A stretch of 64,000 bases of DNA from an uncultured bacterium (lineage in GTDB: Bacteria > Chloroflexota > Anaerolineae > J036 > Brachytrichaceae), in contig CAIXPS010000292.1 in the NCBI GenBank assembly GCA_903921365.1, positions 1-64,000 of the forward strand, read 5' to 3'. Below, in pieces: positions 20,908 to 25,190 of this stretch (position 1 is its first letter; every line of letters starts with the position of its first letter). A program made the position numbers and the translations under genes. The notes under the pieces are model-generated. The model made no database searches and had not been told where the DNA came from. It saw nothing but the letters and a program-made list of their open reading frames with translations.

Positions 20908-21195
20908 CTAGATCATGGGGAGGCGATTGATCTGTTCGGCAAGATTGATGTCTTTATCGGTCAAGCCGCTTGCATCATGTGTAGTGAGTGCCAGCGTCAC
21001 TCGACGCCAGTTGATGGTGATATCCGGGTGATGTTGTGCTGCCTCGGCCAGTAACCCGACAGCATTTACGAATGTAAGCGCCTGCACAAATCCAGATAGC
21101 GCGAAAGTGCGCGTGATCTCGCCCTGCGCATTCAGCGACCACCCTTCCAACTTCGCGAGCGTTGTTTGTGCCTCTTCTGTGCTAAATTTTGTCAT
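20908..21195 (-). CDS. phhB: 4a-hydroxytetrahydrobiopterin dehydratase (PCD/DCoH)
   Basis: 95 residues, the normal size. It has the conserved core with the catalytic His pair (AAQHHPDITINWRRVTLALTTHDASGLTDKD). The enzyme dehydrates pterin-4a-carbinolamine to recycle the pterin cofactor; in bacteria without phenylalanine hydroxylase it may support the molybdopterin pathway. It lies 38 bases after the amidohydrolase gene on the same strand. Confidence 0.88.
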   Translation of the reverse strand: MTKFSTEEAQTTLAKLEGWSLNAQGEITRTFALSGFVQALTFVNAVGLLAEAAQHHPDITINWRRVTLALTTHDASGLTDKDINLAEQINRLPMI

Positions 21196-21233: not shown

Positions 21234-23261
21234 TTATGCTGTTGTGCCGGCCTGATCTTTGCCCATCACGATGTCGATATATTCATGCCGGATGACGGCG
21301 TCGTCCAGTATGCCAAATTGCGCCAACACTTCACCGATTACTTGTGACTTGTGCTCTGCGTCGCGGATGCTCCATGTGCGGCTCTTTATCTCGATATAAG
21401 CGCCTGATTGTTCGGGCTTGACGATGCGATCGATATTGATAAAGAAGGTGTCATCGTCGTACAGGATCTCCCAGCGCAACCGGTCTTTCTCAATCTGCAC
21501 TTCGTGGGATGGCTTGAAATACTCGCGGTAGAAGCGCAGGCTGCGATCTGCCGGCGCGATGAAGCGCGAACGCGACAAGAGGATGGAGTGGGGGTACTCT
21601 CGTTCCTTCTGCGCGCCGACAAGCGTTAACCTGTAACGGCTATTGATGATCTGCCCACTTTCATCAATGTGCTCATCTTCTCGATAACGCAGGCGTGTGT
21701 TCTCACTATCAAAGTGGAAGTAGGTGTCGTATTGCTTGTAATGAACACTGCGCACTACTGTGAAATCGCTGTTATTTATGATCTTGGCAATAATAGGCGC
21801 TGGATCATCGACGCGCGCCTTGAGCTGCACCTCAAACGACTCTTCCTGCTGGACGCCGCCAATGGCCGCCAGTTTGCGCAATACATCGCCCTCGCGCTCG
21901 ATCAGGAACGTGTTGATCTGCGCTGCAACGGCGTTGGCGCGCGCGCGGATGTCGGATTCGTCGAGTGTCAGCAGGGTGCGATTGCGCATCAGACACTTCC
22001 CGTTTACCCAGACATCGCGAACGTCGCTGCCTTTGCTGGCGTAAACGATTTGTGTATAGACGCCGTTCGGGTTGCGCGACAGGCTGTAGTACTGCGGTGT
22101 GTTGTGCAGTGTAGCCATATTGAGCACAATGATGTCAGCCCGCTTGCCTGGAACCAGCGACCCTGTCATATCGCCGATGTGGAGAGCGCGCGCGCCCTCG
22201 ATCGTGCCCATCGCCATAGCCGTGCGCGCCGGAACGACCACAGGGTCGCGCGTGCTGCCTTTGGCAAGTAATGCCACAAGCCGCATCTCCTCAAAGTGGT
22301 CAAGGTCGTTGTTGCTTGCCGGCCCGTCTGTGCCGATGCCTACGTGCAAGCCCGTTGCCAGCATCTGCGTCACATTGGCGACGCCGCTGGCGAGTTTCAG
22401 GTTGGCGGTCGGATTGTGGGATATAGTTGCGCCGGCGCGTTGCAGGGTGCGCATTTCTCCCTGGTCGATAGCAGTGCAGTGTGCGGCGATGACCCTGGCC
22501 TCGAGCAAGCCATTCTTCTTCACCCAGTTCACTACGGGCATGCCGTGTTCGCGGCGCGAATCCTCTACTTCCTGGAAGGTTTCGCTGATGTGGATATGTA
22601 ACGGGACATCGTACTTGATCGCCATCTCGGCGCAGCGCAACAGCAGGTTGCCGCTGCACGTGTATGGCGCATGCGGCGCAACAACTGGAACAATGAGCGG
22701 GTGCCCTTTCCACTTCTGGATGAATTGCTCGCAGCTGACGAGGCTTTCATCCCAGGAACCGGCGTCGGGTGTGGGGTACTGCATGATGGTCTGGCCGCAG
22801 AGCGCCCGCATGCCAGACTTTGAAATGGACTCGGCGATCGAGTCTTCATAGTAGTACATGTCATTGACGCAGGTCACCCCGCTGCGAATCATCTCGGCGC
22901 AGGCGAGTTGCGCGCCAAGCGCGACAAACTCTGGAGACACAAAATTTCGTTCGACCGGCAGCATATAGCCATACAGCCATACGTCAAGCCGCAGGTCATC
23001 GGCGAGTCCACGCAACAGCGTCATCGGCACATGTGTGTGTGCGTTGATCAACCCAGGCATGACGACATGGTTATTGCAATCGACTACTTCAGTTGCCTGG
23101 TAAGTGCGTTCGATCTTTTCTGCCTCGCCAACAGCCACGATCTTGTCCGCTTTGATGGCGACTGCACCGCGGGGGTATAACGCAAAGTTGTCATCCATGG
23201 TGATGACGAAGCCGTTGGTGAGTATTGTGTCGACCCGGATCGGTATTTCAGCTTGAGACAT
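21234..23261 (-). CDS. Amidohydrolase (deaminase type) fused to a CYTH domain
   Basis: 675 residues in two parts. Residues 1-455 are a TrzN/MtaD-like metal-dependent deaminase with HTH (75, 77), LHIH (222, 224), AAHC (261) and TDGP (Asp312), all the expected ligands. Known relatives deaminate 5'-methylthioadenosine, S-adenosylhomocysteine, guanine or triazines. Residues 476-668 look like a CYTH triphosphate tunnel domain: EVQLK at 477-481 in place of ExExK, RLRYRED at 523-529, RLTLVG at 544-549 and YIEIKSR at 622-628. CYTH enzymes hydrolyse triphosphates or cyclise ATP. Only about 200 residues follow the deaminase, so the fusion is in one frame without a break. TATAAC ends 6 bases before the ATG. 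Confidence 0.8.
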   Translation of the reverse strand: MSQAEIPIRVDTILTNGFVITMDDNFALYPRGAVAIKADKIVAVGEAEKIERTYQATEVVDCNNHVVMPGLINAHTHVPMTLLRGLADDLRLDVWLYGYMLPVERNFVSPEFVALGAQLACAEMIRSGVTCVNDMYYYEDSIAESISKSGMRALCGQTIMQYPTPDAGSWDESLVSCEQFIQKWKGHPLIVPVVAPHAPYTCSGNLLLRCAEMAIKYDVPLHIHISETFQEVEDSRREHGMPVVNWVKKNGLLEARVIAAHCTAIDQGEMRTLQRAGATISHNPTANLKLASGVANVTQMLATGLHVGIGTDGPASNNDLDHFEEMRLVALLAKGSTRDPVVVPARTAMAMGTIEGARALHIGDMTGSLVPGKRADIIVLNMATLHNTPQYYSLSRNPNGVYTQIVYASKGSDVRDVWVNGKCLMRNRTLLTLDESDIRARANAVAAQINTFLIEREGDVLRKLAAIGGVQQEESFEVQLKARVDDPAPIIAKIINNSDFTVVRSVHYKQYDTYFHFDSENTRLRYREDEHIDESGQIINSRYRLTLVGAQKEREYPHSILLSRSRFIAPADRSLRFYREYFKPSHEVQIEKDRLRWEILYDDDTFFINIDRIVKPEQSGAYIEIKSRTWSIRDAEHKSQVIGEVLAQFGILDDAVIRHEYIDIVMGKDQAGTTA

Positions 23262-24470: not shown

Positions 24471-25190
24471 ATGACTGGTCAACGAGAAACTATACAACCT
24501 ATCCAGGCTGCGCTGTTGCAAGGCGCCGGAAATGTCCGCATCCTGTTAAATCTACCGCTGATCCGTATTGGCCGCGGTGTATCGGGGGAAGGGGACATTG
24601 TAGTTGCGCCCGATGATACGCAGGTGTCACGTGAGCATGCCAGATTGATTCTTGATCTGGGCCGCTGGCTGCTTGAAGACTGTAGCCGCAATGGCACGCT
24701 GGTCAACGGAGAGATCATCCACACTCAACGCGTCGTCCTGGGCGCGGGCGACCGAATACAGATTGGCAGTTCTTTTGACTTCGTCTTTAAAGACTTGAAC
24801 GTCACAGACGCTTCGCCTGTGACGGATCAACAGTTTGCTGCCCAGCAGTTCGTTCCAAATACCCGCGAGACGCCTCCGACAGACAAAGGCATTTGGATCA
24901 GCCCAAGCGCAGCGATCTGGCGCGATGGGGTGTGCCTGCCCGCGAACCTCTCCCGAACAGAATACCGGTTACTCAAGTTCCTGTCGAAGCGCCCCGGCGA
25001 TGTGTGTGACTATGAAACGACGATCCACGCAGTGTGGGGAATGGCGCGCGACAAGGACAGCTTGCACGAGCTCATTTATCGGGTTCGGCGCAAGATCGAA
25101 GTTGATCCGGCGCAACCGAAATACCTGATCATCCGCGCGGGGATAGGAGTTGTGTTTTTTTCGCTCGGCAGTGATAGCGGCACTCAGTAG
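24471..25190 (+). CDS. FHA domain-winged helix DNA-binding protein
   Basis: 239 residues. The FHA domain is at about 23-105 (IRIGRG, SREHARL, CSRNGTLVNG), a phosphothreonine-binding module. A short linker follows and then an OmpR/PhoB-type winged helix (about 135-235: LSRTEYRLLKFLSKRPG, LIYRVRRKIE). It looks like a transcription factor controlled by a Ser/Thr protein kinase instead of a receiver domain. No kinase gene is in the window. Targets are unknown. Confidence 0.8.
   Translation: MTGQRETIQPIQAALLQGAGNVRILLNLPLIRIGRGVSGEGDIVVAPDDTQVSREHARLILDLGRWLLEDCSRNGTLVNGEIIHTQRVVLGAGDRIQIGSSFDFVFKDLNVTDASPVTDQQFAAQQFVPNTRETPPTDKGIWISPSAAIWRDGVCLPANLSRTEYRLLKFLSKRPGDVCDYETTIHAVWGMARDKDSLHELIYRVRRKIEVDPAQPKYLIIRAGIGVVFFSLGSDSGTQ

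Follow-up and report, generated by a model that had tools for sequence, protein, structure and literature searches.

The window, by which we mean the whole stretch of 64,000 nucleotides that was analysed, carries on its minus strand a gene in which a predicted deaminase of the MTA/SAH/adenosine group is fused to a CYTH/TTM domain. This fusion is real and old. The CYTH tunnel has an altered metal site but a preserved phosphate cradle, and these data suggest a working deaminase and a CYTH domain that would regulate or position it and would bind a phosphate or triphosphate compound without hydrolysing it, a reading to which we would give about an even chance. The original prediction had located the gene at the same positions and had described it as a deaminase joined to a CYTH domain. 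The coordinates were right, the strand is an addition, and the two-part architecture was borne out by sequence profiles, an AlphaFold model and Foldseek. The gene and its parts are as follows:

21234..23261, minus strand: fused deaminase and CYTH gene, a single open reading frame of 675 aa with an ATG start
21909..23237, minus strand: amidohydrolase deaminase domain, residues 9-451 (PF01979; 4f0r, E 2e-99; Foldseek TM 0.96 of target)
23031..23039, minus strand: HxH metal motif H75/H77 of the deaminase (121/121)
22326..22328, minus strand: metal ligand D312 of the deaminase (121/121)
21858..21959, minus strand: helical connector, residues 435-468 (the full-length model has helices at 435-457 and 460-468)
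21258..21842, minus strand: CYTH/TTM domain, residues 474-668 (homologue profiles, AlphaFold, Foldseek)

The reading frame is uninterrupted in the single-contig genomes G053, G023, G212 and G256 and open on many independent contigs, so that an assembly artefact was rejected. A listed defence protein was also rejected, since there was no PADLOC match. No relative was seen in the viral contigs searched, and no plasmid record covered 80% of the protein, the best plasmid matches being restricted to the deaminase part. Our search of the open-licence full-text literature (PMC) gave no paper describing a fusion of an amidohydrolase to CYTH; domain databases may list the combination uncommented.

The N-terminal part scored 221 bits against PF01979 (curated cut-off 25), and comparison with PDB sequences retrieved the MTA/SAH deaminase 4f0r with an E-value of 2e-99. 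PRK09045 was the best NCBIfam deaminase/chlorohydrolase model for this part, and the equivalog cut-offs of PRK09045 (469 of 540 bits), PRK07228 (355 of 522) and PRK15493 (295 of 779) were not reached. The full-length AlphaFold model, which was based on a 71-row alignment, had a pLDDT of 92.7 and a pTM of 0.88. When it was compared with the PDB by Foldseek, the top structures were 4f0r, 4f0s, 3lnp, 4dzh and 4dyk (TM 0.95-0.98 of target). Residues H75, H77, E104, H224, E227, H261 and D312 are invariant in 121 distinct fusions. The original prediction that all metal ligands of the MTA/SAH/guanine deaminase group are kept thus held for H75, H77, H224, E227, H261 and D312 (121/121 homologues), a set that covers the HxH, H, H and D ligands and the catalytic Glu of amidohydrolase-superfamily deaminases. 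Judged by its sequence, the region from residue 9 to 451 is an intact MTA/SAH/adenosine-type deaminase, and its substrate is probably a 5'-modified adenosine (MTA, 5'-deoxyadenosine, SAH) or adenosine.

The MTA/SAH and 5'-deoxyadenosine deaminases (4f0r/4f0s, TM0936, DadD of M. jannaschii) resemble the fusion over the whole N-terminal domain and in all metal ligands, and 4f0r shares 41% identity with the fused deaminase in the Foldseek alignment. However, these enzymes lack both the C-terminal CYTH domain and an insert of about eight residues. The extra residues, as seen against solved unfused deaminases, lie at 391-402 (window 22055-22090), where the confidence of the model is lower, and they possibly contact the CYTH domain. 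Several genomes with the fusion also encode an ordinary unfused deaminase (35-39% identity), and thus the fusion is not simply the sole enzyme of its kind.

When the C-terminal part of the window protein was searched alone, it stayed below PF01928 and was matched by cyaB at an E-value of 5e-4 only. Since this copy is too divergent for PF01928, the region was tested via its homologues. Here, PF01928 matched 11 of 24 C-terminal domains (best 3e-9) and 34 of 71 full-length proteins (E <= 0.01), cyaB matched 19 of 24 C-terminal domains, and in a genome search three homologues passed the curated Pfam cut-off for PF01928. The match to this family that the original prediction had envisaged was consequently obtained for the homologues but not for the window protein itself. 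hhalign aligned the fused domain nearly end-to-end with four small CYTH proteins of related genomes (E 1.5e-4, probability 51%, with shallow profiles). A sequence profile of the domain found no meaningful PDB chain, and matches there came from the fold search alone. AlphaFold modelled the C-terminal domain on its own with a pLDDT of 86.7 and a pTM of 0.83, and Foldseek placed class IV adenylyl cyclases, TTM1, SaTTM and ThTPases first (2fjt: E 1e-7, TM 0.62/0.71), with no better match to another fold. Taken together, profiles, AlphaFold and Foldseek make the CYTH/TTM fold assignment of residues 474-668 secure. This confirms the CYTH domain predicted earlier at residues 476-668, and the motifs EVQLK, RLRYRED and YIEIKSR are present.

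The tunnel contains the following elements, of which E477/Q479/K481 and E624/K626 were placed by aligning the domain with YgiF of E. coli and with small CYTH proteins:

21819..21833, minus strand: altered ExExK, E477-x-Q479-x-K481 (121/121; aligned to YgiF Glu-4, Glu-6, Lys-8)
21681..21689, minus strand: RxR phosphate-binding pair R525/R527 (121/121)
21474..21488, minus strand: phosphate-binding residues K592-x-R594-x-R596 (121/121)
21429..21431, minus strand: D611, conserved acid ahead of strand 8 (121/121)
21384..21392, minus strand: altered ExE on strand 8, E624-x-K626 (121/121; aligned to YgiF Glu-160, Glu-162)

Invariance was scored over 121 distinct fusions from two phyla, and in this set E477, Q479, K481, D512, R525, R527, K592, R594, R596, D611, E624 and K626 do not vary. 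In YgiF, Glu-160 serves metal 1 and substrate coordination, Glu-4, Glu-6 and Glu-162 serve metal 2 and water activation, and exchange of Glu-6 or Glu-160 to Ala impairs the activity (PMC4641920). The roles of ExExK and ExE have been given likewise in another study (PMC8233210). In the fusions, E624, the metal-1 glutamate, is kept and K626 replaces a metal-2 glutamate (121/121). Since Q479 and K626 align with Glu-6 and Glu-162 of YgiF, the catalytic metal 2 has only one of its three ligands left, the other two being replaced (Glu to Gln, Glu to Lys). The hydrolase (TTM/ThTPase) motifs ExExK and strand-8 ExE are absent, and the sequences read E-x-Q-x-K and E-x-K in 121/121. From the Gln in ExExK, the original prediction had suggested that the domain may bind rather than cleave. 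The invariance of this Gln and the invariant Lys at the second ExE position, which had not been remarked on before, make binding without cleavage more plausible on sequence grounds. A decaying tunnel was rejected, since the phosphate-contacting positions are invariant in the 121 fusions.

With the CYTH/TTM family PF01928 (CyaB, YgiF, SaTTM, ThTPase), the fused domain has in common the tunnel fold, the metal-1 Glu, RxR, the K/R cradle and the aspartate ahead of strand 8. It differs in carrying ExQxK for ExExK and ExK for ExE, both of which are invariant in the fusions. The signature of class IV adenylyl cyclases is HFxxxxExExK together with Ala at the second ExE position (PMC8233210). The window protein has QQ at the HF positions and Lys, not Ala, at the second ExE position, and a class IV cyclase (CyaB) was rejected by these motif rules because the fused domain lacks the HF motif. 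A typical ThTPase was rejected by the rules of the same study (PMC8233210), since most members have no W/Y ahead of RxR. In CYTH-CHAD proteins such as E. coli YgiF, a CYTH tunnel also shares one chain with another domain, but there the CYTH domain is N-terminal, its catalytic motifs are intact, and the partner is CHAD and not an enzyme. The window's genome encodes a further CYTH gene (G000:C194:4386-4853, inside a 545-aa frame) and a small standalone CYTH protein (L173; G000:C202:2525-3004) with N-x-E-x-K and an intact ExE.

Since the metal site is altered alike in all 121 fusions and the cradle is kept, the tunnel is likely to sense or hold a phosphate compound. We propose that, together with a single metal ion, it would bind a ligand rich in phosphate (ATP, a different NTP, PPPi or a short polyphosphate), and that this ligand would not be hydrolysed by the usual two-metal route. 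Occupancy of the tunnel may then regulate or position the deaminase via the conserved helical connector, in which R456, E457, K463 and L464 are at least 97% conserved, and the salvage of purines and SAM by-products would thereby track the cell's phosphate or energy status. The role in nucleotide salvage or signalling that the original prediction had suggested is thus plausible. This mechanism is supported by the conservation of the deaminase ligands (121/121), the close structural match to MTA/inosine-binding deaminases, the obligate co-occurrence of both halves, the congruence of their trees and the pTM of the full-length model (0.88).

Alternatively, the CYTH domain may still hydrolyse a phosphate compound such as pyrophosphate, and deamination would then be coupled to a second hydrolysis. 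The plant kinase-TTM fusions AtTTM1 and AtTTM2 resemble our protein in that a CYTH domain without canonical ExExK and ExE is joined to another enzyme, and they are reported to hydrolyse pyrophosphate without these motifs (PMC8233210). Thus, motif loss does not prove loss of catalysis. The tandem kinase-TTM structure 7z67 ranked fourth in Foldseek for the fused CYTH model, and the DxY motif (D512, Y514) is kept. AtTTM1/AtTTM2 differ from the fusion in their partner domain, their organisms and their preference for pyrophosphate. Against retained hydrolysis, mutation of the equivalent Glu-6 impairs YgiF (PMC4641920), and Lys at the second ExE position is described for no CYTH class in the CYTH literature cited here. 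We consider retained hydrolysis unlikely.

A bifunctional protein with a one-metal enzyme of the Vtc4 type, which would use metal 1 and Lys626 to transfer phosphate onto polyphosphate or some other acceptor, is distinctly unlikely. In the polyphosphate polymerase Vtc4, metal site 1 is present and site 2 absent, and basic residues stand where the hydrolases have the glutamates of the acidic patch (PMC4641920); K626 and R628 are basic in the fusion. However, no VTC-family Pfam match was found in 24 C-terminal domains or 71 full-length members, E477 of the acidic patch is retained, unlike in Vtc4, and such an activity has no known link to a deaminase. It also appears quite improbable that the tunnel holds the substrate of the deaminase itself by its phosphate tail, in which case this substrate would be a nucleotide or another phosphate-bearing adenosine compound and not a free nucleoside. 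An invariant phosphate cradle and an invariant deaminase site do lie in one chain and the full-length model is confident, but the nearest solved deaminases bind free nucleosides. That the CYTH domain is a mere structural or oligomerisation scaffold without ligand is very improbable. In favour of it, the Mediator Med18/Med20 barrels, which are structural subunits, occur among the Foldseek matches, but charged tunnel residues that are invariant in 121 proteins, the domains of which differ at up to 66% of positions, are hard to explain without a charged ligand.

A genome survey of the fusion, as advised in the original prediction, yielded it in 89 of 400 Chloroflexota genomes and, for a second phylum, that of L076 (Candidatus Ozemobacteraceae), in 15 of 40. 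In the Chloroflexota, the CYTH subfamily of the fusion and the deaminase clade occur in the same 89 genomes. Of 99 sampled relatives, 67 have the C-terminal domain. It also occurs in 450 contig stretches of GTDB, and the best 80 of these are nearly all named Anaerolineae or Chloroflexi. When the 400 Chloroflexota genomes were searched with the deaminase part, all intact matches (at least 460 bits) lay in frames of 657-840 aa and the unfused deaminases scored at most 292 bits, which leaves a clean gap below the fused set. Neither half turned up as an intact protein without the other among these 400 genomes, and this includes orthologues without the CYTH domain, the case that the original prediction had named as speaking against it. 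Two genomes, G234 and G464, have the halves on separate contigs, apparently because the assembly is broken there.

The phylum of L076 is a small group and not Chloroflexota, since no more than 40 genomes were available for it, against 400 for the Chloroflexota. In the tree, 11 sequences of the second phylum and L076 form one clade with a support of 1.0, and this single clade together with the 15 of 40 genomes indicates that the second phylum carries the fusion. Its genomes with the fusion include G485, G488, G492-G497 and G502-G507. Pairwise distances of the N-terminal and C-terminal domains were correlated (r = 0.81). The C-domain tree had 32 well-supported splits, of which the N-domain tree also supported 27 and conflicted with one. 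This congruence fits a single fusion after which the two domains were inherited together. Tentatively, we consider it possible that this vertically kept CYTH subfamily, with metal-2 ligands changed to Gln and Lys, is a new tri- or polyphosphate sensor or a one-metal phosphotransferase controlling the deamination of purines and SAM by-products in the Chloroflexota and the second phylum.

CYTH/TTM proteins are found throughout life. Their physiological role has been largely elusive so far (PMC8233210). Here, throughout a large clade, one deaminase is locked to a CYTH domain whose hydrolytic metal site is altered and whose phosphate cradle is untouched. The deaminase offers a built-in read-out for the tunnel ligand, so that the question of the ligand is directly testable, and since cultured Chloroflexia appear to carry the fusion, such work is not confined to uncultured organisms. 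As a caution, both metal-2 motifs should be checked before CYTH proteins are named cyclases or triphosphatases.

The immediate neighbour of the fusion in the window is:

20908..21195, minus strand: pterin-4a-carbinolamine dehydratase (PCD) gene (PF01329, E 2e-31), 38 bp downstream of the fusion

This gene is possibly co-transcribed with the fusion. In related genomes, 10 loci also have it close to the fusion, and its downstream position holds in the window's family. Just past it, dnaA lies on the opposite strand. The region 24471-25190 of the window encodes an FHA domain with a transcriptional-regulator C-terminal (winged-helix) domain, and 18 of 80 loci have relatives of this gene close to the fusion. 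In the Anaerolineales, CinA lies upstream and an inositol-monophosphatase (IMPase) or phosphoesterase gene downstream, and a tight same-strand row of CinA-like, fusion and inositol-monophosphatase-family genes was seen in several of them, namely in L079 (5475-9398), L099 (102-4190) and L117 (780-4719). Other lineages have a divergent pyrimidine nucleoside phosphorylase or a convergent MutS gene as neighbour, and in two Chloroflexia-like genomes coaE (dephospho-CoA kinase) abuts the fusion downstream (L214, 5480-8238; L217, 5383-8055). Across 80 loci there was no universal gene partner, each neighbour being limited to sub-lineages, and thus the context does not identify the ligand.

SAH-hydrolase-family genes were present in 94 of 99 genomes of the class, and the motif HxTxE was read in three fusion genomes only (G000, G053, G023). 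HxTxE has been linked to SAH preference, and HxExK marks an SIH-preferring hydrolase (PMC10978960). Since the three genomes carry HxTxE and not HxExK, the archaeal route via DadD and SIHH (SAH to SIH) is not indicated, and MTA, 5'-deoxyadenosine or adenosine would then be the likelier substrates. The window's genome contains four purine-nucleoside-phosphorylase-family genes, and proteins of this family could take up the deaminated product.
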